Assembly: GCF_037023755.1 (NCBI RefSeq)
Contig: NZ_CP146100.1
Location: 1,614,501-1,678,500, forward strand
Direction of reading: 5' to 3'
DNA: 64,000 bases
Source: Saccharopolyspora sp. SCSIO 74807
GTDB lineage: Bacteria > Actinomycetota > Actinomycetes > Mycobacteriales > Pseudonocardiaceae
The position numbers and the translations under genes are program-made. The notes beneath the pieces were generated by a model. It was not told where the DNA came from. It saw only the letters and a program-made list of their open reading frames with translations, and searched no databases. The first letter of the stretch is position 1. Each line of letters starts with the position of its first letter. Shown here in pieces: positions 6,933 through 59,901 of this stretch.

Positions 6933-8129
6933 GTGAGTGAACCGCACGTGCGCAGCGAGGTCGGCGGCCTGCACAGCGTTCTGCTGCACCGCCCGGGCAA
7001 CGAGCTCAAACGCCTCACGCCGCGCAACAGCGACCAGTTGCTGTTCGACGCGATCCCGTGGGTGGACCGCGCGCAGGCCGAGCACGACGCCTTCGCCGAT
7101 GTGCTGCGCGGCCGCGGCATCGAGGTCGTGCTGCTGCGCGACCTGCTGGTGCAGACCCTCGGCGACGCGCGGGCGCGGGCCGCGGCGGTGCATTCCGGCG
7201 TCGACGAGCTGCGGCTGGGCCAGGACGTCGCCGACACCCTCCGCTCCTACCTGTCCACAGTGCCCGAACAGGTGCTCGCGGAGGCGCTGACCGCGGGCAT
7301 GACCTTCGAGGAACTACCCGGTTCGGAAGGCCGTTCGCTGGTGCGCCGGATGCACCACTCGCACGACTTCGCGCTCACGCCGCTGCCGAACCTGCTGTTC
7401 ACCCGCGACTCCTCAGTGTGGGTGGGTGACCGCGCGGCGATCGCCGCGCTGGCGATGCCCGCCCGCCGCCGCGAGTCCGCGCTCACCGACCTGATCTACG
7501 CCTACCACCCGCGCTTCTCGCACTCTGCCCGCGCGTACGGCGCGCACTCCGCCCCCGTCGAGGGCGGCGACGTGCTGCTGCTGGCGCCGGGCGTGGTCGC
7601 GATCGGCGTCGGCGAACGCACCACCCCGGCGGGCGCGGAGTCCTTCGCCCGCTCGATGTTCGCCGACGACCTCGCGCACACCGTGCTCGCCGTGCCGATC
7701 GAGCAGCAGCGCGCGTCGATGCACCTGGACACGGTGTGCACGATGGTCGATGCGGACGCCGTGGTGATGTACCCGGCGGTGCAGCATTCGCTGACCGCGT
7801 ACGCGCTGCGCCCCAAGGACGGCGACCTGGACGTCTCCGACCCGGAGCCGTTCCTCGACGCGGCGGCGCGCGCGATGGGCATCGACCGCCTCCGCGTCAT
7901 CGACACCGGCCTGGACCCGGTCACCGCGGAACGCGAGCAGTGGGAGGACGGCAACAACACGCTCGCGCTGTCCCCCGGCGTCGTCGTCGCCTACGAGCGC
8001 AACGTCGAGACGAACTCCCGCCTGGAAGCCGCCGGCGTCGAGGTGCTGCGCATCAGCGGCACCGAACTCGGCTCCGGCCGCGGCGGCCCGCGCTGCATGT
8101 CCTGCCCGCTCGTCCGCGAGGCGCTTTGA
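6933..8129 (+). CDS. arcA: Arginine deiminase
   Basis: This enzyme hydrolyses L-arginine to citrulline and ammonia. The 398 residues carry the full guanidine-modifying set: [23 protein letters not shown] with the catalytic histidine, and the C-terminal [10 protein letters not shown] with the nucleophilic cysteine. The start is GTG 6933. No ornithine carbamoyltransferase, carbamate kinase or antiporter lies alongside, so this is a solitary gene and may serve arginine catabolism or acid resistance rather than a complete ADI operon (inference). Confidence 0.95.
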
Positions 8130-8279
8130 CGGCTGCGAAATGATTTCGCTCACCCGATCCACGTTGTGCCGGGCGGCCTCCCGGAAGTCATCGCGAAGCT
8201 GCCGGAGCAAAATCCCGCGCGAAGTCGGGCCGCAGCCGGATAACCACCACGAACACCGGTAAGGATCGCCTTGCCGAAA

Positions 8280-8298
8280 TTAGGTGAAGGGAACCTGG
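8280..8298 (+). promoter_or_regulatory. Degenerate iron-box-like site upstream of ferritin
   Basis: TTAGGTGAAGGGAACCTGG matches the DtxR/IdeR consensus at 13 of 19 positions, with both outer half-sites TTAGGT and AACCT kept. It lies 77 bp before the ferritin start. A further inverted pair, GGAACCT and AGGTTCC, overlaps and follows it. In mycobacteria iron-bound IdeR activates the ferritin gene from upstream boxes, which fits this placement. The match is weaker than the box at 4602. Confidence 0.45.
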
Positions 8299-8374
8299 GA
8301 AAGGCGAGGCGAAGGTTCCTCCAGGTATTCCTCGCCAAATTGTGAGGGCGCGAATTCGGCGTACCATCGGCAGC

Positions 8375-8935
8375 ATGAACGTCACCGCAAAGAAGCTCCA
8401 GCCCCGCGAATCCCGATTCCACCAGCTGCTGCAGGACCAGGTGCGCAACGAGCTGAACGCATCGCAGCAGTACCTCGCGGCAGCGGTGTGGTTCGACAAC
8501 GAGGACCTGCCCCGCTTGGCCGCGCACTTCTACCGGCAGGCGCTGGAAGAGCGCAACCACGGCATGATGATCGTGCAGTACCTGATGGACAACGACATCA
8601 AGGTGGCCATCCCGGCCATCGACGAGGTCCGCAACGACTTCACCGAAACCCGCGAACTCGTCGCGCTGGCGCTGGAACAGGAGCGCGAAGTCACCCAGGA
8701 GTTCTTCACGCTGGCCAAGGAGGCCCGCAACGAAGGCGACTTCCTCGGTGAGCAGTTCCTGCAGTGGTTCCTGAAGGAACAGGTCGAAGAGGTCTCGCAG
8801 ATGTCCACGCTGCTGGCCGTGGTGGACCGTTCCAACGGCAACCTGTTCGACGTGGAGAACTTCCTCGCCCGCGAGAACGTGGGCGACGAAGGCCTCGACG
8901 CCACCGCTCCGCCCGTGGCGGGCGGCGCCGTGTGA
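8375..8935 (+). CDS. Ferritin (iron-storage, BfrB-like)
   Basis: This 186-residue ferritin stores iron in a 24-subunit shell. The ferroxidase ligands are visible: Glu in VRNELNASQQYL, the ALEERNHG helix with Glu and His, and further glutamates in ALEQEREV and LKEQVEEV. The C-terminus is a proline/alanine tail. The start is ATG 8375. There is almost no ribosome binding site, and TACCAT lies 8 bp before the ATG, so the transcript may be nearly leaderless. A possible iron box lies upstream and a strong terminator downstream. Confidence 0.95.
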   Translation: MNVTAKKLQPRESRFHQLLQDQVRNELNASQQYLAAAVWFDNEDLPRLAAHFYRQALEERNHGMMIVQYLMDNDIKVAIPAIDEVRNDFTETRELVALALEQEREVTQEFFTLAKEARNEGDFLGEQFLQWFLKEQVEEVSQMSTLLAVVDRSNGNLFDVENFLARENVGDEGLDATAPPVAGGAV

Positions 8936-8951
8936 CCAAGGCGCGATTACG

Positions 8952-8982
8952 AAGGGCGGCCGGATTGTCCGGCCGCCCTTTT
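8952..8982. terminator. Bidirectional rho-independent terminator
   Basis: A perfect 13-bp inverted repeat (AAGGGCGGCCGGA and its complement) around the loop TTG is followed by a short T run. It lies between the convergent ferritin and anti-sigma-like genes and can serve both. Confidence 0.85.
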
Positions 8983-9001
8983 CGCGCGGTTCGCCGCTGG
9001 T

Positions 9002-9490
9002 CTAGTCCGCGTCGCCGCTGGGGGCCGAGGACGTCGACTGCGAGGTCGATGATTCCGAGCTCGACGGACTGGACGTCGTCGGCTCCGGCCGGGAGGACTC
9101 CGAATCGCGCAGGATCGACGGGATCTCGTGCGTCGAACTGCCGCGCGGCACCTCGGGCGGTGCTCCCGGCTGCTCGATCCGGCTCGGCCGGTCCGGCGGC
9201 GGCGACGTGGGGACCACGTGCGGATGCGTCCGCTGCTGCGTCGAGCTGGGCGTGACGACCACCGGCGCCGCCGGGCGCACGGGCTCCTGCGGCGACCGGG
9301 CGACCAGCGTGGCACCGCCACCGACCAGCGCCGTCAACGCCATCGCACTGCCCACCGCGGCGAGGGCCGTCTGCCGCCTGCGGCGACGGCGCGCGGACGC
9401 CACCAACGCCCATTCGGCGCCCGTGCGCACCGGCACTTCCAGCCGGTCGTCGGCGAACAAGCGGTGCAGCTCGTCGTCGAGCCCCATCAC
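9002..9490 (-). CDS. Single-pass membrane protein coupled to the ECF sigma gene (putative anti-sigma partner)
   Basis: This 162-residue protein has a cytosolic N-terminus with an acidic helix (GLDDELHRLFADD) and a poly-arginine stretch. One membrane helix follows (about residues 42-64, ALAAVGSAMALTALVGGGA). The C-terminus is a long proline-, serine- and threonine-rich extracytoplasmic tail. The GTG start overlaps the sigma factor stop by 4 bp; a second possible ATG is the next codon. It lacks a zinc anti-sigma HxxxCxxC motif. Position and topology suggest a membrane regulator of the sigma factor, as is common in SigE-type actinobacterial pairs (inference). Confidence 0.75.
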   Translation of the reverse strand: MMGLDDELHRLFADDRLEVPVRTGAEWALVASARRRRRRQTALAAVGSAMALTALVGGGATLVARSPQEPVRPAAPVVVTPSSTQQRTHPHVVPTSPPPDRPSRIEQPGAPPEVPRGSSTHEIPSILRDSESSRPEPTTSSPSSSESSTSQSTSSAPSGDAD

Positions 9491-10065
9491 ACCTCACCGC
9501 CCTCGAACAGCGGGCCGAGCTTGCGGCGCAACGCGGCCAGCGCCTTGCTGGCCTGGCTCTTCACCGTGCCCGGGCTGACGCCCAGCGAGCGGGCGATCTC
9601 CGCTTCGGACAAGCCCTCGTAGTAGCGCAGCACCACGACCGCGCGCTGCCGCGGCGGCAGGTCCCGCAGCGCCTGCCACAGCGGCTCGTTCTCCAGCCGG
9701 TCCGGGGCATCGGCGGCCGGGACGTCCGGGAACTCGGCGAGCAGCGTTTCCCTGCGAGTTCTGCGCCAGCGGCTGACGTGCGCGTTGGCCATCGCCTTGC
9801 GCACGTAGGCGCGGGGTTCCTGGCAGCTCTGGCTGATCTTCGACCAGCGGGCGCCGACCTTCTCCAGCACCGTCTGCACCAGGTCCGCCGCGTCGTGCGG
9901 ATTGCCGGTCAGCGCGTGGCCGTAGCGCATCAACCCGGGCAGGGCGGCCCGGACGAACTCCGCGAAGTCGTCCTCCACCTCGGCCACGTCCCGCGCTCGC
10001 ACCGGGCGCGACCAGCTCACCGCCGACTCCGCGGCGGGTGGCACAGCAGGCGATCGAGCGGTCAC
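9487..10065 (-). CDS. ECF RNA polymerase sigma factor, SigE family (actinobacterial type)
   Basis: This 192-residue sigma-70 family factor has region 2 (DDFAEFVRAALPGLMRYGHAL, TGNPHDAADLVQTVLEKV) and region 4 (LPPRQRAVVVLRYYEGLSE, ARSLGVSPGTVKSQASKAL). It lacks a sigma-1.1 domain. The start is GTG 10065 behind GAGGGGAG. It directs polymerase to a small regulon, probably at the envelope, and is translationally coupled to a single-pass membrane protein that is likely its regulator. Confidence 0.92.
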   Translation of the reverse strand: MTARSPAVPPAAESAVSWSRPVRARDVAEVEDDFAEFVRAALPGLMRYGHALTGNPHDAADLVQTVLEKVGARWSKISQSCQEPRAYVRKAMANAHVSRWRRTRRETLLAEFPDVPAADAPDRLENEPLWQALRDLPPRQRAVVVLRYYEGLSEAEIARSLGVSPGTVKSQASKALAALRRKLGPLFEGGEV

Positions 10066-10168
10066 GCCACCACTCCCCTCCGCAGCACTGTCGCTTTACG
10101 GAGGTACGCGCCCGCGGTCGGCAGGGTTGCCGTTCCGGTTCCGGACCACCCGAACGGCCCAGCGGAGA

Positions 10169-10540
10169 TCAGGGCGCGGAGCCGATCCACATCCCGGGAC
10201 GCCGTCGGTGCGTGGTCAGGTAAGTGAGCCCGGCTTCCCCGGCCGTGAAGGCGCGGCGCGAGCCGTGCGGGAGCCACAGCAGCGCGCCCCCGGTCATCGG
10301 GTGCGAGCCGTCCGCGGCTTCGAGCACGCCGTTCCCGCCGAGCACGAGCAGCAGCACGTCCAGGTCCGGTTCGGCGTGCGCGTCCACACGCTGGTGCGGG
10401 GCCAACCGGACGACGTTGGCGTCCAACTGCCGCCCGGCTTCAGCGAGCTTCCACCGCACACCGGATGACTCGTCCGCGGCGAGCTCCCCCACGTCGGCGA
10501 GGACGCGCGGGAGCTCCTCGGGCACTTCGCGCTCCGGCAT
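10169..10540 (-). CDS. Small cupin-domain protein
   Basis: This 123-residue protein has one cupin-like double-stranded beta-helix. ANVVRLAPHQRVDAHAEPDLDVLLLVLGG resembles cupin motif 1, with His residues at the metal positions, and GALLWLPHGSRRAFTAGE resembles motif 2. The start is ATG 10540, four bases after the stop of the SEC-C gene, so the two are probably co-transcribed. Metal binding is likely; substrate unknown. Confidence 0.75.
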   Translation of the reverse strand: MPEREVPEELPRVLADVGELAADESSGVRWKLAEAGRQLDANVVRLAPHQRVDAHAEPDLDVLLLVLGGNGVLEAADGSHPMTGGALLWLPHGSRRAFTAGEAGLTYLTTHRRRPGMWIGSAP

Positions 10541-10544
10541 CGCC

Positions 10545-11486
10545 TCAGCGCAGCGTGACTTGGCGACCGCGCAACCCGTCGCGGGAACGCCGCTCGGTCG
10601 CGTCCAGCGGAGTGCTCTCCAGCGACTGCAACGCCTCGGTGAGCCGTTCGCCCAGCGCAGCAGCGGGTTCGTCCCACTCCCGCGGGTGCTTGTCGCGGTC
10701 CAGGTCCCACACCGGCACCAGCACGCCGTGCGCGCGGAACGACCCGGCGAACCGGCTGTCGTCGTCCAGCGCCAGCTCACCGCGCGCGGACAGGCGCGCG
10801 CAGGCGGCCAGCAGCTTCTCCTCCGGCTCCGGGCGCACCCAGCGCAGATGCGCCTTCTCGCCGGTGTCCACCCAGTACGCCGAGCGGGCGGTGGAGAGCC
10901 GGGCGGTCGGCATGATCGCGGCGTTCGCCCGCTCCAGGGACAGCTTGATCTCACCGGTCGGCTCGGTGCCCTCCGGCAGCCACCACGAGAAGTCCTCGTG
11001 CAGCTCGACGTCCAGCTCGGCGTCCGGGTCGATCAGGTCCTGCAACCGGGTCGCGTCCGGCTGCGGCGTCTCGGGGCCGACGACCGGCAGCGACTCGCCC
11101 GCCTCGGCCTCGCGCACCCACTCGACCGCGCGGGCCAGGTCGCGGCTGAGATCGCCGGAGCGGGTCTGCACCTGCAGCCCGACGAACGCCTCCTCGTCGG
11201 AGCGCTTGACCGCCGCGGCCGCCATCGGCAGCACCGAGGCCACCGTCACGTCCGCGCCGTCGCGCAACGGCAGCTTCGCCGTGGCCGACGGGACGAACTC
11301 GCGCAGGGCCACCAGGTCGCCCTCCGCGGCCAGGCCCTCGAACGGCCTGGTCACGATCACGTCGCCGGCACCTCGGGCGGTGCCGTGGCAGTTCTTGTAG
11401 CGCTTGCCGGACCCGCACGGGCAAGGCTGCCTCGGGCCGACAGCGCCCTCTGCGGCCTGGGACCGGGTGGCCGTTCGCTTCGACAC
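10545..11486 (-). CDS. DUF5926 protein with N-terminal SEC-C zinc motif
   Basis: This is a 313-residue cytosolic protein. The N-terminal segment RQPCPCGSGKRYKNCHG (residues about 19-35) is the SEC-C zinc-binding motif (CxC...C-H) best known from the SecA C-terminus. The rest is an actinobacteria-typical DUF5926 body with acidic helices (DPDAELDVELHEDFSWWLPEG). The start is GTG 11486 after AGGAGG. Function is unknown; SEC-C proteins may contact the ribosome or the secretion machinery (family-level idea). A cupin gene follows four bases downstream. Confidence 0.85.
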   Translation of the reverse strand: MSKRTATRSQAAEGAVGPRQPCPCGSGKRYKNCHGTARGAGDVIVTRPFEGLAAEGDLVALREFVPSATAKLPLRDGADVTVASVLPMAAAAVKRSDEEAFVGLQVQTRSGDLSRDLARAVEWVREAEAGESLPVVGPETPQPDATRLQDLIDPDAELDVELHEDFSWWLPEGTEPTGEIKLSLERANAAIMPTARLSTARSAYWVDTGEKAHLRWVRPEPEEKLLAACARLSARGELALDDDSRFAGSFRAHGVLVPVWDLDRDKHPREWDEPAAALGERLTEALQSLESTPLDATERRSRDGLRGRQVTLR

Positions 11487-49999: not shown

Positions 50000-50728
50000 A
50001 TGAACGAATCCAGACCCGCCGCGCGGCTCGCGGTCACCGCCGCAGCCATCGGGCTCAGCGCCCTCGCCGGCGCGGGCACCGCCACCGCGCACGTCCACGT
50101 GCAGCCGGAACAAGCCGAGCAAGGCGGCACCGCGAAGGTCACCTTCCGGGTGCCGAACGAACGACCGGACGCGGGCACCGTCCGCGTGCACGTGGCGCTA
50201 CCGCTGGAGCACCCGCTGAGTTCGGTGCGCACCCGCCCGCTGCCCGGCTGGACGGCGCAGGTGCAGAAGGTGCGGCTGGACCGGCCGGTCAACGTGGCGG
50301 GCGCCGAGGTCACCGAGGCCGTCTCCGGCATCACCTGGACCGCCCGGCCCGGCACCAGGATCGCCCCGGACCAGTTCGAGGAGTTCGAGGCGACCCTCGG
50401 CACCCTGCCCACCGACACCGGCGAGGTGTTGCTTCCCGCCGAGCAGACCTACGACAGCGGCGAAGTGGTGCGCTGGGACCAGTCGCAGGGACCGGACGGT
50501 TCCGAACCCGAGCGCCCGGCCCCCAGCCTGCAACTGCTGCCCGCGACCGAGGAGCACTCCCACGGCGCGCCCGCGGACAGCGCCGCACCGAGTTCCGGCG
50601 AGCCCGCGCCCGCATCGGACGACACCGCGCGCGTGCTCGGCGGCGCGGGCCTGCTCGTCGGCGCGCTCGGCCTCGGCGTGGGCATCGGTGCACTGTTGCG
50701 CGGCCGGCGCGGGCGGGCCGACTCATGA
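50000..50728 (+). CDS. ycnI: YcnI-family secreted copper-binding protein
   Basis: This 242-residue exported protein (signal peptide about residues 1-30) begins its mature part HVHVQPEQAEQGGTAKVTFRVP, with the histidine that binds copper in YcnI/DUF1775 proteins. It has a beta-sandwich body, a proline-rich linker and a C-terminal membrane helix (VLGGAGLLVGALGLGVGIGALL). The start is ATG 50000 after AAGGAG. It is coupled to copC by a 4-bp overlap. Confidence 0.92.
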   Translation: MNESRPAARLAVTAAAIGLSALAGAGTATAHVHVQPEQAEQGGTAKVTFRVPNERPDAGTVRVHVALPLEHPLSSVRTRPLPGWTAQVQKVRLDRPVNVAGAEVTEAVSGITWTARPGTRIAPDQFEEFEATLGTLPTDTGEVLLPAEQTYDSGEVVRWDQSQGPDGSEPERPAPSLQLLPATEEHSHGAPADSAAPSSGEPAPASDDTARVLGGAGLLVGALGLGVGIGALLRGRRGRADS

Positions 50729-51255
50729 GGCGGCTGCTGGCTACCGCGGCCCTGACCTGCACCGCACTGCTCGGCCTTGCCGGCCCGGCGGCCGCGCACA
50801 ACACGCTGGTCGGAAGCGACCCGGCCGAGGGCGCACAGCTGGCCACCGGCCCCGGCGAGGTGCGGCTGACCTTCGACCAGCCGGTGCGCGCGGGCGAGGG
50901 CTACAACACGGTCAACGTCGTCGGGCCGGACGGCAGCTACTGGACCGACGGCCAGGTGCGGGTGACCGGCAACTCGGTCAGCGCGCCGGTGCGCCCGCTC
51001 GGTCCGGCAGGTGTCTACACGGTCGGCTACCGGGTGCTGTCCAACGACGGACATCCGGTGCCCGGCAAGGTGTCGTTCACGCTCACCGAACCCGGCGGCG
51101 GCACCCCGGCCCCGCCACCGGCCGCCGCGGACGGGTCGCAGCAGCACTCCGGCGGCGCGATGCCGATCTGGCCGTGGATCGCGGGTGCGGTCGTGCTGGT
51201 CGTCGCCGGGCTGGTGCTGGCGCTGCGGCTGGGCAAGCCGACCGACGAGGGCTGA
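50725..51255 (+). CDS. copC: CopC-domain copper-binding protein
   Basis: This 176-residue secreted, membrane-anchored protein has a signal peptide cleaved before HNTLVGSDPAEGAQLATGP, so the N-terminal histidine binds Cu(II). The CopC beta-barrel ends with LSNDGHPVPGKVSFTL. One C-terminal helix follows (IWPWIAGAVVLVVAGLVLAL). CopD is not encoded nearby. Together with YcnI it probably delivers or buffers copper outside the membrane. Confidence 0.92.
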   Translation: MRRLLATAALTCTALLGLAGPAAAHNTLVGSDPAEGAQLATGPGEVRLTFDQPVRAGEGYNTVNVVGPDGSYWTDGQVRVTGNSVSAPVRPLGPAGVYTVGYRVLSNDGHPVPGKVSFTLTEPGGGTPAPPPAAADGSQQHSGGAMPIWPWIAGAVVLVVAGLVLALRLGKPTDEG

Positions 51256-51884: not shown

Positions 51885-52793
51885 CTAGCGATACGGCTCC
51901 CACTGCACCGTGCGATCACCCTCGCGCATCGAACGCAGCCGGATCCGCAGCTGCTCCCGCACACCCGGATTGCTGCGCAGGATCGGCAGCACGCTGGCCG
52001 TGATCTTCAGCTCGCGCAGGTCGCGCAACACCTGGAAGCCCGGCCAGGCCGTCACGTCGAAGCCGTAGACCGCGGCCAGCTCCCGGTAGCGCTCCGGCGG
52101 TGCGCCGAGCCGCAACATGCCGACCGCCATCGGCGTGAGGTCCCACTCCGGCGGCCCAGCGCACAACGAGTCCAGATCGCACAGCAGCGGCCCCTCCGGA
52201 CCTGCGATCAGGTTGCCGAGGTGCGCGTCGCCGTGCACCACCGAGCGGGCCAGCGGGAACTCCAGCCGTCCCAACCGCTCCTCGACGTCGTCGCAGTAGT
52301 GCTGCAGGAACGCGCAGTCGGCGGCGTCCAGCTCCTCCGCGTCCGCGATGCGCCTGCGCACGTCTTCCATCGGGCGCCATTCGGGCAACGTGGACGGCAC
52401 CGGCAGCGCGTGCACCTGCCGCAGCAACCCGCCCAGGTCGCTACCGCCCGGCGCCGGGCCGACCTCCGGCACCGCCTGCCACAGCGTCGCCAGATGCCCT
52501 CCCGCGCGCACCGGCTGCGCAACTCCCGGCAGCAGCCGCACCGCGGGCACCTGGTGCTCGGCCAGCACGCGACCGGCCTCCACAACGTTGACCGCGCGGT
52601 AGGAGAACGACGGAGCCAGCACGATCCGCACGATCACCGGATGCTCCCGCAGCAGGAACACCCCGTTGTTGACGAACCGCACCAGCTTCGCCCCGCGCGG
52701 GTCCAACCCCGCGGCGGCGCAGATCTCCGCCAGCGCCATCGCCAGCTTCGGCCGGGTGTAGCGGCCTTCCGCGGCACGGGTGCGCGACGTCAT
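51885..52793 (-). CDS. Aminoglycoside phosphotransferase-fold kinase
   Basis: This is a 302-residue APH-fold protein. It has a short N-lobe with FVNNGVFLLREHPVIVRI, the Brenner motif VVHGDAHLGNLIAGPEG and the metal-binding LLCDLDSLCAGPPEWDL. This family phosphorylates small hydroxylated molecules or antibiotics; the substrate is unknown. The start is ATG 52793 (MTSRTRAAEG). It lies 79 bp after the XRE-TPR gene on the same strand. Confidence 0.88.
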   Translation of the reverse strand: MTSRTRAAEGRYTRPKLAMALAEICAAAGLDPRGAKLVRFVNNGVFLLREHPVIVRIVLAPSFSYRAVNVVEAGRVLAEHQVPAVRLLPGVAQPVRAGGHLATLWQAVPEVGPAPGGSDLGGLLRQVHALPVPSTLPEWRPMEDVRRRIADAEELDAADCAFLQHYCDDVEERLGRLEFPLARSVVHGDAHLGNLIAGPEGPLLCDLDSLCAGPPEWDLTPMAVGMLRLGAPPERYRELAAVYGFDVTAWPGFQVLRDLRELKITASVLPILRSNPGVREQLRIRLRSMREGDRTVQWEPYR

Positions 52794-52872: not shown

Positions 52873-54240
52873 TCACGTCTCGCGGAACCGGCGGATCTCT
52901 TCGGACAGGTCCCGGGCATCGGAGTTCATCCGGTGCTTGCCCGCCTCCACCTGCAGCGGCTTGATCCGGTCGGCGACCCGGGCCGACTTGACCCGCTCGC
53001 CGATCTGCAGCGCCTGCCGCCCGACCTTGATGCCCTGCTGCAGGTCGCCGGCCCGGATGTGGTTGGTGGCCTGCAAGCTCAGCCCGAACACGTGCGTGCG
53101 CTGCATGTCCGCGCCGTACGCCTCGTTGCACTTGATCGTCTCGGCCACCGCCAGCGGTGCGTACCGGTCCGGGTCGAACACGGCCAGCGCGTCGTGCGCG
53201 GAGCCGATCATCCCGTGCAGGTCGTTCTCGTTGAAGAACCGCACCCAGTCCGGCGCCTCGGTGACGTTCGCGCGGGCGAACTCGTCCTTGGTGCGGCCGA
53301 CCATCTTCTGCACCTGGTCGGGCTTGTTCAACATGCCGTAGGCCCAGGCCTCGTTCGCGCACAGCACCGCGACGGTCAGCGCCGAACCGGACTCCTGCGC
53401 GGCGATCTGGCCGAGCTGGAACAGCTTCAGCGCCTCGTTCGGCTCCTGGTAGTGCAGGTAGACGCGGCCCATCCGGTACAGCACGCTGGCCACCAGGCTG
53501 TCGTCCTCGGCCTGCTTGGCGAACTCCAGCGCCTTGCCGAAGTGCCCGCGCGCCGGATCCAGCAGCCCGGTGTCGAACGAAGTCCACCCGGCGAGGCTGT
53601 GCATGTCCGCCAGCGACACGTAGAGCTTCTGCTTGACCTGGTCGGATGCGTTCGCATCCAGCAGCTGCTGCGCCCAGGAAAGCTGGGCGACCACGGCGTC
53701 CCGGCAGGTGCCGCCGCCGTAGCGGTAGTCCAGGTCGCGTAACGCCTTGGTCGCCGCCTGGATCTGCTGCACGTCGGTCATGCCGATGCGCCCCGGGGCC
53801 GGCGTCTGCACATTGCTCGGCACCCAGGTGCTCTCCTCGGCACCGAAGACCGCTGCCCCCATGGTCACCGCCGCGGCGTGGGACAGGAATTTCCGACGCT
53901 TCACCGACTCGTCCTCCTCAGCCTGGGGGTCGCTGGAGTTCGCGACCCTCATCGCCGTCGCCCCGTCATAGGCGAGGCCCATGTACCCCCTCGGTATTCC
54001 GAGCCCGTCGGCGATGCGGGCCAGCACGTCATAGGCCATGACCTGGCGACCCTTGAGGATCTCGGACACCTCGGACTGCGACTGGCCCGTCGATGCGGCG
54101 ATCTGGCGCTGCGAAACGCCGACCCGGCGCAGTTGCCGGTAGATCTCGCTGACGTTCCGGGCCGCCAACGCGTCCCGCATCCTTCGCTCGTTCCACACGT
54201 CGGGTGTAACGAGCGAGCCGTTCGAACCGATGGTGTTCAT
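52873..54240 (-). CDS. XRE-family regulator with C-terminal TPR domain
   Basis: This 455-residue regulator has an N-terminal helix-turn-helix (VSQRQIAASTGQSQSEVSEIL, about residues 42-62). A short Tat/hydrophobic-like segment follows (RRKFLSHAAAVTMGAAVFGA), then about 300 residues of tetratricopeptide-like helices (EPNEALKLFQLGQIA, NHIRAGDLQQGIKVGRQAL). This type is abundant in Pseudonocardiaceae and Streptomyces. It is divergent from two small genes across a 221-bp gap with a perfect inverted repeat, its likely operator. Confidence 0.9.
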   Translation of the reverse strand: MNTIGSNGSLVTPDVWNERRMRDALAARNVSEIYRQLRRVGVSQRQIAASTGQSQSEVSEILKGRQVMAYDVLARIADGLGIPRGYMGLAYDGATAMRVANSSDPQAEEDESVKRRKFLSHAAAVTMGAAVFGAEESTWVPSNVQTPAPGRIGMTDVQQIQAATKALRDLDYRYGGGTCRDAVVAQLSWAQQLLDANASDQVKQKLYVSLADMHSLAGWTSFDTGLLDPARGHFGKALEFAKQAEDDSLVASVLYRMGRVYLHYQEPNEALKLFQLGQIAAQESGSALTVAVLCANEAWAYGMLNKPDQVQKMVGRTKDEFARANVTEAPDWVRFFNENDLHGMIGSAHDALAVFDPDRYAPLAVAETIKCNEAYGADMQRTHVFGLSLQATNHIRAGDLQQGIKVGRQALQIGERVKSARVADRIKPLQVEAGKHRMNSDARDLSEEIRRFRET

Positions 54241-54759: not shown

Positions 54760-55098
54760 GTGGACGAGGTATTGGGTCAGGTGCTGCGCAACGCGGTGTG
54801 GGAGCGGCTCGACGTGCTGAGCGAGCTGGCGAACCGCGCGGACGCCCCGTCCCTGCTGTCCGTGGCGCGTTCCGAGCTCCCTCGGCTGACCGAGGGGTGG
54901 CGAACGCTGCTGGCCGCTCACGACACCGACGACAAGGGCAACTGCACGGAGTGCTCGACCCGATGGCGCCCCCGCAGCGCACCGTGCTCGGTGTGGCGCT
55001 CGGCCTACGAGCACCTGGTCGCCGGTGCCCTCGCACCCCGTCCCGCCAGGCACCAGCGCCCGGCGCACGAGCTGCGCCCGGCCGCGCCGGTGCCCTAG
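54760..55098 (+). CDS. Small cysteine-containing protein in the XRE-TPR locus
   Basis: This 112-residue protein has a helical N-terminus (LGQVLRNAVWERLDVLSELA) and a cysteine cluster (GNCTECSTRWRPRSAPCSVW) that could bind zinc, a pattern I associate with short actinobacterial proteins near XRE regulators. The C-terminal tail is proline-rich. The start is GTG 54760. Function unknown. Confidence 0.65.
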   Translation: MDEVLGQVLRNAVWERLDVLSELANRADAPSLLSVARSELPRLTEGWRTLLAAHDTDDKGNCTECSTRWRPRSAPCSVWRSAYEHLVAGALAPRPARHQRPAHELRPAAPVP

Positions 55099-55322
55099 GC
55101 CGGCGGCCTCGGCGCGGTCCGGTCAGCACCACTCCCTCCCCGAACCGGATCGCCGCCGAGCAACCGCCTGGTGGCCGGCGCACTCCGCCGTGCTCCCCCG
55201 ACCACGGCGTGGTCGCCGGCCACCACGTAGGAAAAACTCCACAGTGGACATCCCAGTCTTCCGCGGGCCGGTGCTGAGCAACTCCCCTCCCCCGACCGGT
55301 ACCGGTTCGCGGATTCCAACGG

Positions 55323-55354
55323 CTCCGGTCCCCTATCCCCGAAGGGGACCGGAG
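55323..55354. terminator. Hairpin terminator
   Basis: CTCCGGTCCCCT and its perfect complement form a 12-bp stem with an 8-base loop between convergent genes. Confidence 0.7.
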
Positions 55355-55363
55355 TGGACGAGG

Positions 55364-55409
55364 GGCCCCGGCGTCCGTTTCCCCGGATGGGCGCCGGGGC
55401 CTTTCTATT
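55364..55409 (+). terminator. Terminator with T-rich tail
   Basis: GGCCCCGGCG and CGCCGGGGCC form a 10-bp stem (loop 18 bases), followed by TTTCTATTT on the plus strand. It would stop plus-strand transcripts from the small genes. Confidence 0.65.
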
Positions 55410-55424
55410 TCGCACGACCACGCG

Positions 55425-58400
55425 CTACTTGCGCCTTAGCCGCGCCCGGGCGACCAGTTCGGGATCGAGCCGCACCTCCCCGCGCCCGGGAACGGTGCAC
55501 CCGGCGGGCACCGCGAACCACGGTTGGCGCGGCCCGAGCAGCGCGGAGTAGACCGGCACGAATCCCTGGTCCTGCAAGGAAACCGCGAAGTCCGCACCCA
55601 CCGTTCCGCGCGCATCCACCGCCCCCGTCCCCTGCCACGGCAACAGGCCGGAACCGCCGAGGTAGGTGAACCCGCACCGCCCGCGGCGCGCGGCGCTGAC
55701 GGTGAGGCGGATCCGGTTCGGGAACATCTCCTCGTACCCGAGTTCCTCGTCGACCCGCAGCGTGGCCAGGTAGCGGATCACGATGTGCCAGGCTCGGCGC
55801 AGGACGTCCGCGCGCGCCTGCCGCACCGCGGGCGGCACCGCGCTGCCCGCGAGGTCGTAGACGTCCGAATACACCAGCCGCGCCCAGGTGCCGCGCCGCA
55901 TCCCGGAGGGCACCGGCAGCGGCACCGAGTACACCAGCGACATCAGCATTTCCCGGAACAACACCAGCGCGGGCGCCACCGAATCGTCCACTTCGGACGC
56001 TCGCGCGTGCGCGCTGTCCAAGGTGCGCAGCGGGTCGTCGGTGATGTCCAGGCCCCGCAACGCCTCGGTGAGCAGCCGCCGGTAGCGGGCGGCGCGGACC
56101 GCGCGTTCGGCGGTCAGGTCGCCGCCGATCCTGCGTGCCGCGGCCGCGTCCACCTCTTCGATCGCGCAAGCCTCGGCGATGCCTGCCAGTTCGGCGTACT
56201 CCCGCAGCTTCCGGACGTAGGCACCGGTGATCGACGCCGGCCGCGGCCGGAAGTGCCTGCCGTCGGTGAGGATGCGGAACCGCAGCCCCGGCGGGTGCAC
56301 AGCGCTCGCCGCCCGGTGCATCTCCCGCAGCCGCAGCAGCGAGCCCAGCTCGGCGAGGTCCGGCAGCGGCCCGGAGGCCTTCAGCCCGTTCAGGTGCTGC
56401 TTGACCGGGAAGCCCAGCAGCACCACGTCGATCGGCTGGTCGCCGCGCACGAACGGTTCGGCGTCGCGGCGCAGGTCGGCCACCTGGTAGTTCGCGCGCG
56501 CCCCCTTGCGGAACTGCTTGCGGGTGAGCACGTGGTGCAGCGCCCGCAAGGTGCGTTCCACCCGCTGCTCCTGCGTTCCGGGTTCGTCGAGCGCGAAGGT
56601 GCTGCGCGCGCTGCTCGCGAGGCGGTCGGCGGCGCGGTCGGCGTCGGCACGCACCGACCGGACCACCTCCAGCGATTCCGCGTGGTCCAGCCGGACGGCC
56701 CAGTCCTGCGCGGACCGGTTCGCCCGCAGTTCGCCGATCTGCAGTTCCTCCAGCGAGTGCGTGTGCGACAACCGGGGACCGGGCGCGGGCGCGCGCGGCG
56801 TCGTCTCGAACGTCGCGATCGCGCGCTGCGCGTGCGGCTGTTCGCGTTCGGCCACCAGTCCGGGGACTTGCACGCGGATGGTCAACGCGGAGGGGAACGC
56901 CTCGCCCAGCGCGATCCGGCCTTCCCGCTGGTCGCCGAACACCGCGATCACGTCGAGCTCGCGCAGTTCCGGTAGTGCCTCGGCCTTCCCGTCCGGCATG
57001 CACAGCAGCGGAGCGGTCGGCACGCCCGCGGACGCCAGCACCGCCTCGGTGTGCTCGCGCAACTGCTCGTCGCGTCCGGTGCAGAACACGACCTGGCCGC
57101 CCGCGTCGCGCACGTCCCACGCGAACCGGGCAAGGCCCGCGTTGACCACGTCGGTGCGCAGCAGTTCCCGGGGTCGGGCTAGAGCGCGGGAGAACTCGGT
57201 GTGCACCGCCGGCCAGTCCACCGCCGGATACTGCGCGCCGAGCCCGCTGAGCTCGACGAACCGCTGCCAGGTGGCTTCGGCGCAGGTCGGCAGCACCGGC
57301 AGCGAGTCCGGGCCGGCGAGCTCCGGTATGCCCTCCGGTGCGCCCGGCCGCGGCCCGGCGATCGCGCGAGTGGCTTCGACGGTGCGGCGCAACGGCACGA
57401 TGCCGCACAGGTCCAGGTCGATCACCACCGCGGGCTGGGGCAACGAGCGGTCCCACCGCCGTTTCCGGGTGCGCTCCTGCACCTGGTGCAGCACGTGCCG
57501 GAGCAGTTCGTCCTGTTCGGACTCGACGGTGTGCGCGAACGGCCGCAACTGCGCAACCGACCCGAGCAGCCGCGCGGTGCGCGGCTGCAGGTATCGGAAC
57601 TCCTCGGTGAGCACCCGTTCGATCCCCGCGCGCGCGGATTCCGCGGCGAACGGCCGGTATCCGATGCGGTCGAAAGCGGCGCCTAGTTCGTCGAGCGCAC
57701 CGCGCAACGACCGCGCACCGCGCGCGACGGCGACCGGGTGGGCGTCCGCGACCACGCCGGTGGCCACGACTCGGCCGGTGACCGCGAGTTCCGGTGAGAG
57801 CTCGAAGGCGGGCCGCGCGTCCTCGCCCGCGAACAGCACCGCGCGGTGCTGCTCCAGTGCGATGCGGAAAGCGCGCACCGCCGGGCGCACGAAGCGCTCG
57901 AGGAAGAACCCGAACTCGTGCTCGCGGTGCTCGAACCGGTTGTCCACCAGCAGCTTCAGCAACGCCGGAGCACCGTCCGGGCCAGGCTCGACCAGCGCGC
58001 GCGACCCGGCCGCGATGGTTCCGCCGGGGTGCTCCGGGTGTTGCGGACTCGGCTCCGCGTGCTCCGCGCGAGCGGCGAGCACCGCGCAGTGCATCCGCAG
58101 CACCGGATCCGTGCGCACCACTGCCGCGAAGCCGTCCGCTGCTGGAAGATCCGGCGCCGGCCCGGGGAGTTGCCTGCTCAGCCGCCGGAGCCAACGCGGA
58201 TCGTGCCGGGTGCGCCTGGACCGGCAGCGGACCAGCGCGCGGAACAGGTCGGCCCAGGCGGGTTCGGCGCCCAGCGGCACTCCCCGGCCGCGGGAACCGA
58301 CCAGCCGGAGCTCACCCGCGGACCAGCGGACGCGCTCGGTGTAGCCGCCTGCTTGCAACATCGCGTCCGCTTCCGAAGCGCACAACGGCGCCCAAAGGCC

Positions 58401-58469
58401 GCGGCGGGACTGCTCCGGTGTTGTTCGCGGTGTCGGGACCGGCCGGGAGACCGGCGTTCGCGCGGTCAC
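55425..58469 (-). CDS. HAD phosphatase-isocyanide synthase (DIT1/PvcA) fusion, about 1,014 residues
   Basis: This very large protein has three parts. Residues 1 to about 335 match nothing I recognise. Residues about 345-530 look like a HAD phosphatase: VVIDLDLCGIVP (Asp351/Asp353), FCTGRDEQ (about 462) and VFGDQREGR (about 510). Residues about 660-990 match the isocyanide-synthase family: VVLLGFPVKQHLNG, LPDLAELGSLLRL, ILTDGRHFRP and LLPWQGTGAV near the end. That family turns an amino acid plus ribulose-5-phosphate into an isonitrile. No PvcB-type oxygenase is nearby. I chose GTG 58469; the open frame continues upstream to a TTG at 58517. Confidence 0.72.
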   Translation of the reverse strand: MTARTPVSRPVPTPRTTPEQSRRGLWAPLCASEADAMLQAGGYTERVRWSAGELRLVGSRGRGVPLGAEPAWADLFRALVRCRSRRTRHDPRWLRRLSRQLPGPAPDLPAADGFAAVVRTDPVLRMHCAVLAARAEHAEPSPQHPEHPGGTIAAGSRALVEPGPDGAPALLKLLVDNRFEHREHEFGFFLERFVRPAVRAFRIALEQHRAVLFAGEDARPAFELSPELAVTGRVVATGVVADAHPVAVARGARSLRGALDELGAAFDRIGYRPFAAESARAGIERVLTEEFRYLQPRTARLLGSVAQLRPFAHTVESEQDELLRHVLHQVQERTRKRRWDRSLPQPAVVIDLDLCGIVPLRRTVEATRAIAGPRPGAPEGIPELAGPDSLPVLPTCAEATWQRFVELSGLGAQYPAVDWPAVHTEFSRALARPRELLRTDVVNAGLARFAWDVRDAGGQVVFCTGRDEQLREHTEAVLASAGVPTAPLLCMPDGKAEALPELRELDVIAVFGDQREGRIALGEAFPSALTIRVQVPGLVAEREQPHAQRAIATFETTPRAPAPGPRLSHTHSLEELQIGELRANRSAQDWAVRLDHAESLEVVRSVRADADRAADRLASSARSTFALDEPGTQEQRVERTLRALHHVLTRKQFRKGARANYQVADLRRDAEPFVRGDQPIDVVLLGFPVKQHLNGLKASGPLPDLAELGSLLRLREMHRAASAVHPPGLRFRILTDGRHFRPRPASITGAYVRKLREYAELAGIAEACAIEEVDAAAARRIGGDLTAERAVRAARYRRLLTEALRGLDITDDPLRTLDSAHARASEVDDSVAPALVLFREMLMSLVYSVPLPVPSGMRRGTWARLVYSDVYDLAGSAVPPAVRQARADVLRRAWHIVIRYLATLRVDEELGYEEMFPNRIRLTVSAARRGRCGFTYLGGSGLLPWQGTGAVDARGTVGADFAVSLQDQGFVPVYSALLGPRQPWFAVPAGCTVPGRGEVRLDPELVARARLRRK

Positions 58470-59253
58470 CGGGCGAACTGGTGGTGCGCGGGGACGCCCC
58501 CGGTGACGGGGCGGCAAGTGCCCGCGGCGAGTTCTCTGGACGGTGGGGACGGGTGGACCTGCCGGACGGCGGCGTTCCCCGGGGTGCAGGGCATTCGGGA
58601 ACGGGGAGAACGGGGCGCGACGCCGCAGTAGCTCACGATCACCTTTCCGTCACAGCTCGGGACGTTCCGCCTCACACCAGTTGGCGACCGGGAGGCTTCG
58701 CCTCACGCTAGATAGTGACTATGTGCGCCAGCAATGTGACCGAATGCATACGCCACGCAGTAACTCCAACCCATCCAGGGTGACCTGCGACACTATGTCG
58801 GTAATTGCCTGACGCGGGCACAGGTGTTCCACCGAGCGGGACGCGGCCGCGCGAAGCCACCCCTTCGGTCGACACCGGCCCCGGCATGTCCCCGCCCCGC
58901 CGCACCGGCGCGAGCGGCACACTGCACGTGATCGGCCGAATCTGGACGCACCAGTCAGACCGACCGCCTGCCCAGCCGCCACGGCAGCGTCCGGCCATCC
59001 GCGCACGCCGCTTCACCAGCTGCGCGGCCGCCGGCCGGCCGCACCTGGCGGTGCTGGAACCGCCCGGGAGCTGAAGAGATCCAGCGAGCCGGACGGGTCC
59101 CGGTTGCTGGGAAGATGTGAAAGCGCCACTCGTGGCCGCCAGGATGCCGAGCACGCGGGGTCCGGGTCGGCCACCGGGACCCTCCGCAGCGGGATCGTCA
59201 GCACCGCCGACGTCCAGCCCGCGACGGTCCGCACATGTGATCAAGGAGTCGCC
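58470..59253. other. 784-bp divergent gene-poor region
   Basis: This region separates the HAD-isocyanide synthase gene (minus) from the TetR gene (plus) and shows no convincing coding frame. Bases about 58700-58810 are richer in A and T than the surroundings. They hold the hairpin GAGGC-TTC-GCCTC (58692-58704), and at 58721 a 20-codon frame (MCASNVTECIRHAVTPTHPG) right after a TAGATA box. Promoters and possibly a leaderless short peptide are likely. Confidence 0.45.
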
Positions 59254-59901
59254 TTGCCCGCCGAAGTCGCCCCCCTCCGCCGCAGGCCCGTACAGCAGCG
59301 CAGCACCCAGCGGGTGGAGAAGATGCTGGAGTCCTGCGCCGAGCTCATCGACGAGCTCGGCTACGAGGGGGTGACCACCACGCTGATCGCGGAACGCGCC
59401 GGTGTCGCGGTCGGCTCGCTGTACCAGTTCTTCCCGGACAAGCGGGCGGTCGTGCAGGAGTTGACGCAGCGCAACCTGGACCGCTTCGTCGCCGCGATCT
59501 CCGAGCGGTTCACCACCGCCGACCTGCAGCACTGGTGGGACGCGGTGGACACGGTGATCGACGTCTACATCACCATGCACCGCGACGTGCCGGCGTTCAG
59601 CAGGCTGCACTTCGGCGACGTGGTGGATCTGCGGCTGCTGGACGAGACCCAGGACAACAACGCGGTGATCGCGGAGAAGCTGACCGCGCTGCTGGCCAAG
59701 GAATTCGACTTGGAAGGCGCGCAGCTGCAACTTCCGCTGTCGGTCGCGGTGGAGGCCGCGGACGCGGTGCTCAACCTCGCGTTCCGCCGCGACGCCGCCG
59801 GGGACGCCGAGCTGGTCAGCGAGGCGAAGGAGCTGGTGCGCGGCTACCTGGCGAACCGGCTGCCGCCGGGTCAGCCGAACGACATGCCCTCGCCGCGGTA
59901 G
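59254..59901 (+). CDS. TetR-family transcriptional regulator
   Basis: This 215-residue regulator has the TetR helix-turn-helix (STQRVEKMLESCAELIDELG, ITTLIAERAGVAVGSLYQFF-type, visible as TTTLIAERAGVAVGSLYQFF) and a helical ligand-binding domain. I chose the TTG at 59254 because AAGGAG lies 5 bp upstream and no better start is in frame. It is a local regulator for the divergent HAD-isocyanide gene or the aldolase/oxidase genes (inference). Its end overlaps the convergent aldolase gene by 31 bp. Confidence 0.87.
   Translation: MPAEVAPLRRRPVQQRSTQRVEKMLESCAELIDELGYEGVTTTLIAERAGVAVGSLYQFFPDKRAVVQELTQRNLDRFVAAISERFTTADLQHWWDAVDTVIDVYITMHRDVPAFSRLHFGDVVDLRLLDETQDNNAVIAEKLTALLAKEFDLEGAQLQLPLSVAVEAADAVLNLAFRRDAAGDAELVSEAKELVRGYLANRLPPGQPNDMPSPR

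Follow-up and report, generated by a model that had tools for sequence, protein, structure and literature searches.

A single gene of Saccharopolyspora sp. SCSIO 74807 joins a HAD-type domain to a DIT1/PvcA-like (isocyanide synthase, ICS) domain. In the encoded protein an N-terminal domain (N domain) comes first, followed by the HAD-type domain and then by the ICS-like domain. The HAD-ICS fusion is real and not a chance arrangement, because the domain order recurs in relatives and because dN/dS lies well below 1 across 15 pairs of relatives. Domain order, ICS homology, constraint on the domains in relatives and the recurrence of HAD together with ICS are direct observations of this analysis. 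The ICS part of the fusion is best read, from its sequence, as a diverged branch of the DIT1/PvcA family. No description of a HAD-ICS fusion was found in the open-licence literature searched. To our knowledge, few isocyanide routes are known, and the fate of the sugar phosphate in ribulose-5-phosphate-dependent isocyanide synthesis is not settled.

The fusion gene and its domains

The gene was studied in a window of 64,000 nucleotides, the whole stretch of DNA that was analysed, and its features are given in Table 1. Its stop codon occupies 55425-55427, and the frame stays open on the minus strand back beyond 58517. The candidate start is a GTG at 58467-58469, where a clear ribosome-binding site is absent. 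Saccharopolyspora sp. HNM0986 carries a gene that is 100% identical over 1014 residues. A first-pass annotation had quoted HAD motifs followed by DIT1/PvcA motifs, and every one of these was found in the minus-strand frame. The proposed order was right, with PF05141 scoring over its cut-off and HAD motifs I-IV following one another in sequence. The N-terminal part had been left without a family, in agreement with Pfam giving nothing for the first 342 residues. Profile searches assigned the C-terminal part to DIT1/PvcA (PF05141).

Table 1. Features of the fusion gene and its surroundings, in window coordinates
Feature	Position	Strand	Remarks
Fusion gene	55425-58469	-	about 1014 residues, proposed GTG start, frame open further upstream
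N domain	57423..58376	-	residues 48-365 of P0001; conserved in relatives, no family assigned; weak likeness to C-terminal half of NIS siderophore synthetases
HAD-type domain (putative)	56838..57422	-	residues 366-560 of P0001
HAD motif I, DLDLC	57405-57419	-	D367/D369
HAD motif II, T480	57078-57080	-	
HAD motif III, K511	56985-56987	-	
HAD motif IV, G528-D529	56931-56936	-	
Linker	56538..56837	-	residues 561-660; in part common to stand-alone relatives
DIT1/PvcA (ICS)-like domain	55428..56537	-	residues 661-1030
APH gene	51885-52793		flanks fusion gene in most relatives read
XRE-TPR gene	52873-54240		flanks fusion gene in most relatives read
Small CxxC protein gene	54781-55098		flanks fusion gene in most relatives read
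TetR gene	59254-59901		flanks fusion gene in most relatives read

Divergence within the DIT1/PvcA family

The window protein scores 43.8 bits against PF05141 (Pfam cut-off 26.4 bits; residues 673-764 of the 1014-residue form) and 46.7 bits in a scan restricted to the C-terminal part. The gene is the sole PF05141 match in the 6.69-Mb genome. Each of 31 aligned fusion members, window included, matches PF05141 on its own, and a profile built from them matches the PvcA-type structures 9dhm, 9dh4 and 3e59 in the PDB at E 1e-12 to 6e-12. Against the NCBIfam PvcA equivalog model, the window protein reaches 24 bits, far under the cut-off of 600. HMMER aligns only positions 4-99 of the PF05141 profile (its first third), and the fusion ICS was therefore compared by hhalign with 30 ordinary PvcA-type proteins. 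The resulting alignment (99.6%, E 6e-24) spans residues 65-312 of 338 in the ordinary proteins.

Conserved positions were read from a joint ICS alignment of 31 fusion members, five stand-alone members of this branch and 29 ordinary proteins, with one ordinary frame of 737 residues excluded. K706, K713, P719, D720, E723, D752, Y767, R937, P960 and W961 are kept in all fusion members. The His of the RLSIHP motif is present in 29/29 ordinary PvcA proteins and in 0/31 fusion members, which all carry Ser or Asn instead, and none of the five stand-alone rows has it. In the window, S941 and Q962 stand where ordinary PvcA has His. The PWH His position holds Gln in 22 fusion members and His in nine, and the ordinary-invariant columns 913 and 943 are likewise changed. 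A tree of 58 rows sets the fusion ICS clade apart from the eight ordinary PvcA rows with support 100/99, subject to long-branch warnings. The isonitrile synthase claimed earlier is therefore a candidate at most, given the separate clade and the missing His.

Bacterial ICS proteins are described as single-domain enzymes or ICS-dioxygenases and fungal ones as ICS-NRPS in the available part of PMC5974471. Stand-alone ICS of the PvcA/IsnA type (PF05141; PDB 3e59, 9dh4, 9dhm) are homologous to the fusion ICS domain and share its Lys, PDxxE, Asp, Tyr, Arg and PW positions. The window protein differs from them in its fusion to HAD-type and N domains and in the Ser that replaces the RLSIHP His. IsnAB-type ICS-dioxygenases and fungal ICS-NRPS likewise place ICS in a multidomain protein, but the partner here is a HAD-type domain, which is not among the bacterial architectures given in that part of PMC5974471. 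The word phosphatase is absent from the text of that paper. Yeast Dit1 belongs to the same Pfam family as the fusion ICS, and its product is debated, according to an excerpt of PMC7345447. In contrast to the fusion, Dit1 is a single-domain protein (PMC5974471, same part) without HAD that acts in spore-wall formation.

Erosion and constraint of the HAD-type domain

The middle segment appears to be of HAD type, judging from four motifs, from weak matches to a number of HAD models and from the selection acting on it in relatives. All four motifs are present in order in the window protein. Its motif IV reads FGD, where each of the four other genomes examined from this genus has FDD. With E values up to 1 allowed, Pfam Acid_phosphat_B matches 22 of 25 members, and the same stretch matches HAD_PNKP in 18, LNS2 in 11, Hydrolase in four and HAD in three. 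The HAD phosphatases (PF00702, PF12710, PF03767) share motifs I-IV with the fusion, but HAD model scores of the fusion members, window included, fall under the curated cut-offs, apart from one paralogue that equals the PF00702 cut-off (26.4 vs 26.4 bits), and a whole-domain match is absent. Profiles of this domain and of ten class B acid phosphatases matched locally, at motif II only (39%, E 3e-4, 31 columns). Single-sequence AlphaFold models reached pLDDT values of 40.3 and, for the HAD fold, a mean of 40.9, both too low for use.

Among 45 aligned members the HAD motifs are intact in 26, with the window counted in despite its FGD, and broken in 19, seven of these calls resting solely on the Lys of motif III, a residue located in a variable stretch. 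Mapped on the 58-row tree, the broken state requires six changes, at least four of which are forced by starred branches. The phosphatase therefore seems to be dispensable in some lineages. Selection was estimated in 15 pairs of relatives, some sharing a member and none including the window. HAD dN/dS ranges from 0.07 to 0.37 in the nine pairs with intact motifs and from 0.19 to 0.56 in the six broken pairs, while ICS dN/dS ranges from 0.07 to 0.29 across all fifteen. The HAD value exceeds the ICS value in all broken pairs and in five of the intact ones, and it is as low as 0.07-0.08 in two pairs of the g20 clade. Taken with the motif pattern, these values make the HAD-type domain look functional in certain lineages and in decay elsewhere. 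Between the window and three same-genus relatives, identity is 72-73% in HAD and 73-75% in ICS.

A second fusion copy lies 4-8 kb away in 14 of 15 genomes of genus g26, and the six second copies examined all have intact HAD motifs. In this genus, second copies keep the motifs and several first copies show HAD decay (L038, L040, L041, L053, L062, L063).

The N domain

The N domain resembles NIS siderophore synthetases (PF04183) as a weak lead from profile comparison, far below a safe assignment. A Pfam scan of 31 members gave a best E of 0.0087, in one member, and a PDB search a best E of 0.22. Even with E values up to 5 allowed, the 31 members showed no match to Pfam IucA_IucC or related families. 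Profile-profile comparison with 16 NIS proteins scored 30.1 (4.6%, E 0.0089), whereas 150 column shuffles, a lenient control, reached no more than 21.9 and the reversed profile 18.4. With 46 N domains and 41 NIS proteins the score rose to 38.0 (18.9%, E 0.0012) over 163 collinear columns. The NIS set scored at most 23.3 against 17 control families. The N domain scored at most 29.2 against control families, save for 47.7 against the HAD set, which we read as an overlap artefact because the L164 row runs into the start of HAD. Unlike NIS synthetases, the N domain lacks a Pfam or PDB match, and their HxxN motif is absent from the aligned region. Profile comparisons gave no support for a second ICS or a second HAD domain in this part of the protein.

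Distribution among relatives

Matches were found in 80 of 249 genomes of one actinobacterial family. By hand count, N and ICS portions are carried by 49 genomes from 10 genera, in 47 of them within one frame on one contig, and homologues with the same domain order, which the first-pass annotation had asked for, exist. Ten genomes from three genera carry the ICS of this branch alone, with no N-domain or HAD-motif match, and 20 have an ordinary PvcA-type match only. The match in G144 (residues 30-88) is doubtful, as the family profiles find nothing there. Extending the search to 394 genomes at class level, by sequence and by profile, added no full-length member.

An order-level profile search of 298 genomes recovered two members outside the family, G928 and G935, from two other families. 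G928 combines HAD and ICS with all HAD motifs present and ICS spread over two contig ends; no N-domain match was found on its two contigs. In G935 one frame encodes the N domain plus a HAD remnant and a second frame the ICS, with the canonical His kept (RLSPHPRP). In a tblastn search, its ICS matched ten plasmid records at 26-27% identity (E 1e-7 to 4e-5), the best three of which (86, 86 and 82% coverage) are annotated as isocyanide synthase family proteins. At this locus (L164 8598-14930, G935:C27), the ICS relative lies beside MFS, adenylation, carrier, thioesterase and ATP-grasp genes in an NRPS-like cluster.

Genomic neighbourhood

The genes around the fusion form a conserved backbone with a variable cargo slot that extends from the TetR gene to the small CxxC-protein gene (window 55098-59254; L099-L114). 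An APH match is present in 235 of the 249 family genomes, about 195 of them below 1e-80 (hand count), whether or not the fusion is present. In 16 APH windows read, the slot has no fusion gene, and one of these genomes, G019, carries the fusion elsewhere. The slot is empty in L103, L107, L108 and L113. By Pfam it holds GH1 and MFS genes in L099, L100, L101 and L104 and GH1 in L106; by eye, GH1 and MFS in L109 and GH1 only in L112. Other or unscanned genes occupy it in L102, L105, L110, L111 and L114. In the g20 clade the fusion gene lies in different surroundings. As a counterpoint, XRE-APH also adjoins stand-alone or second copies in g3, g38 and g26. The neighbours were rejected as pathway partners, given that APH is family-wide and the order of the other genes is largely kept in windows without the fusion. 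Since the neighbours are backbone and the slot content varies, no pathway can be read from them.

The absence of an adjoining oxygenase, pointed out in the first-pass annotation, holds for the TauD type. A Pfam scan of ten neighbours names none of that type, and the three TauD-type (PF02668) matches in the genome all lie about 3 Mb or more from the fusion gene. By contrast, six of the family's ordinary ICS genes have a TauD neighbour. DUF1775 and CopC genes (window 50003-51255) suggest copper handling, and such clusters recur among relatives, with and without the fusion. Small CxxC...C proteins occur near the fusion gene in two contexts (window 54781-55098, L046 13373-13567).

A separate HAD gene accompanies an ordinary ICS gene in L064. 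There, an AMP-binding gene, an ordinary-type ICS gene and a stand-alone HAD gene form a tight row (7322-10792, G034:C1), the HAD gene (PF00702, 72.5 bits) starting a few bases after the ICS gene. Among 20 further ordinary-ICS windows, 19 of them with ICS called, the L064 HAD had no match. A narrow motif search of these windows found HAD-like genes in three only (L183, L184, L186), encoding 340-344 residues and located five genes from the ICS gene; two of the three have a weak TauD match adjoining. HAD beside ordinary ICS was discarded as a general rule, being seen at one locus. In L178 the gene after ICS is a cysteine-dioxygenase relative.

Proposed function and alternatives

ICS enzymes take their nitrogen from Trp or Tyr and their carbon from ribulose-5-phosphate, as stated in the available portion of PMC7949033. 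We tentatively suggest, with somewhat less than even confidence, that the fusion protein carries out an ICS-type condensation of a diverged kind and that its HAD domain removes phosphate in the same pathway. The ICS-like domain would probably join an amine, most likely that of an amino acid, to carbon from a sugar phosphate. The HAD domain would strip phosphate from a sugar phosphate that this reaction consumes, forms as an intermediate or releases as a by-product; an isonitrile, or a hydrated or formyl relative of one, could be the product. We infer the substrates, the chemistry and how the domains share the work. In favour of this proposal, the ICS homology extends over almost the entire domain, and all fusion members keep the Lys, PDxxE, Asp, Tyr, Arg and Trp of PvcA. 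Further support comes from the intact HAD motifs in more than half of the aligned members, the low dN/dS of intact pairs and the HAD-ICS protein of G928 without an N domain, together with the His-bearing G935 relative in its NRPS-like cluster and the HAD gene right after ICS in L064. Against it stand the loss of an invariant His, the repeated erosion of HAD in 19 of the 45 aligned members, the altered motif IV of the window protein, the lack of a conserved pathway partner adjoining the gene and the occurrence of HAD next to ordinary ICS at one locus only. The first-pass annotation had already suggested that the phosphatase processes the sugar phosphate. This idea gains from the HAD-ICS pairing beyond the family, from the constraint on HAD where motifs are intact and from L064, and loses from repeated HAD decay within the fusion and the window's own change from FDD to FGD.

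The missing RLSIHP His, shared by the five stand-alone rows, and the separation of the fusion clade from ordinary PvcA might also indicate that the ICS-like domain performs other chemistry, such as a different C-N condensation or the formylation suggested for Dit1 of yeast. Dit1 is of the same Pfam family, yet PvcA is unable to replace it (excerpt of PMC7345447). We regard this alternative as possible but doubtful, as the remaining near-invariant PvcA positions are kept (K706, K713, D720, E723, D752, Y767, R937, W961), the G935 relative with His sits in an NRPS-like cluster, and Dit1 is still classed as an isocyanide synthase in the accessible text of PMC10153163. Another view takes HAD as now mainly a spacer or vestige, with the ICS-like domain alone at work and the window HAD already impaired. 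Repeated erosion of the motifs while the frame stays open, the higher HAD dN/dS in every broken pair and the FGD of the window would fit such a vestige. However, HAD identity equals ICS identity between the window and its same-genus relatives, and the two g20 pairs show strong constraint on HAD, which makes a vestige rather unlikely. It is highly improbable that the protein has no biosynthetic role and is instead linked, as a regulator or pseudo-enzyme, to the adjacent XRE-TPR/APH genes. These genes do lie near the fusion in most relatives whose surroundings were read, but the APH match is found regardless of the fusion, the slot elsewhere holds unrelated genes or nothing, and the ICS positions are strongly conserved.

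The proposal of condensation coupled to phosphate removal has a bolder form, which we consider unlikely. The gene might constitute a self-contained pathway, with the built-in phosphatase clearing or priming the sugar phosphate of an ICS-type reaction and an N domain that, if the NIS lead holds, would be degenerate and siderophore-synthetase-like. If true, the fusion would expose a phosphatase step for which stand-alone ICS rely on other enzymes of the cell, and a siderophore-synthetase-like N domain would additionally point to a metal-binding product.

The fusion branch is common in one actinobacterial family, where intact, decayed and HAD-less relatives exist. A phosphatase-type domain joined to a synthase-like domain makes the fate of the sugar phosphate directly testable, and the fusion hints at a little-explored chemical step.
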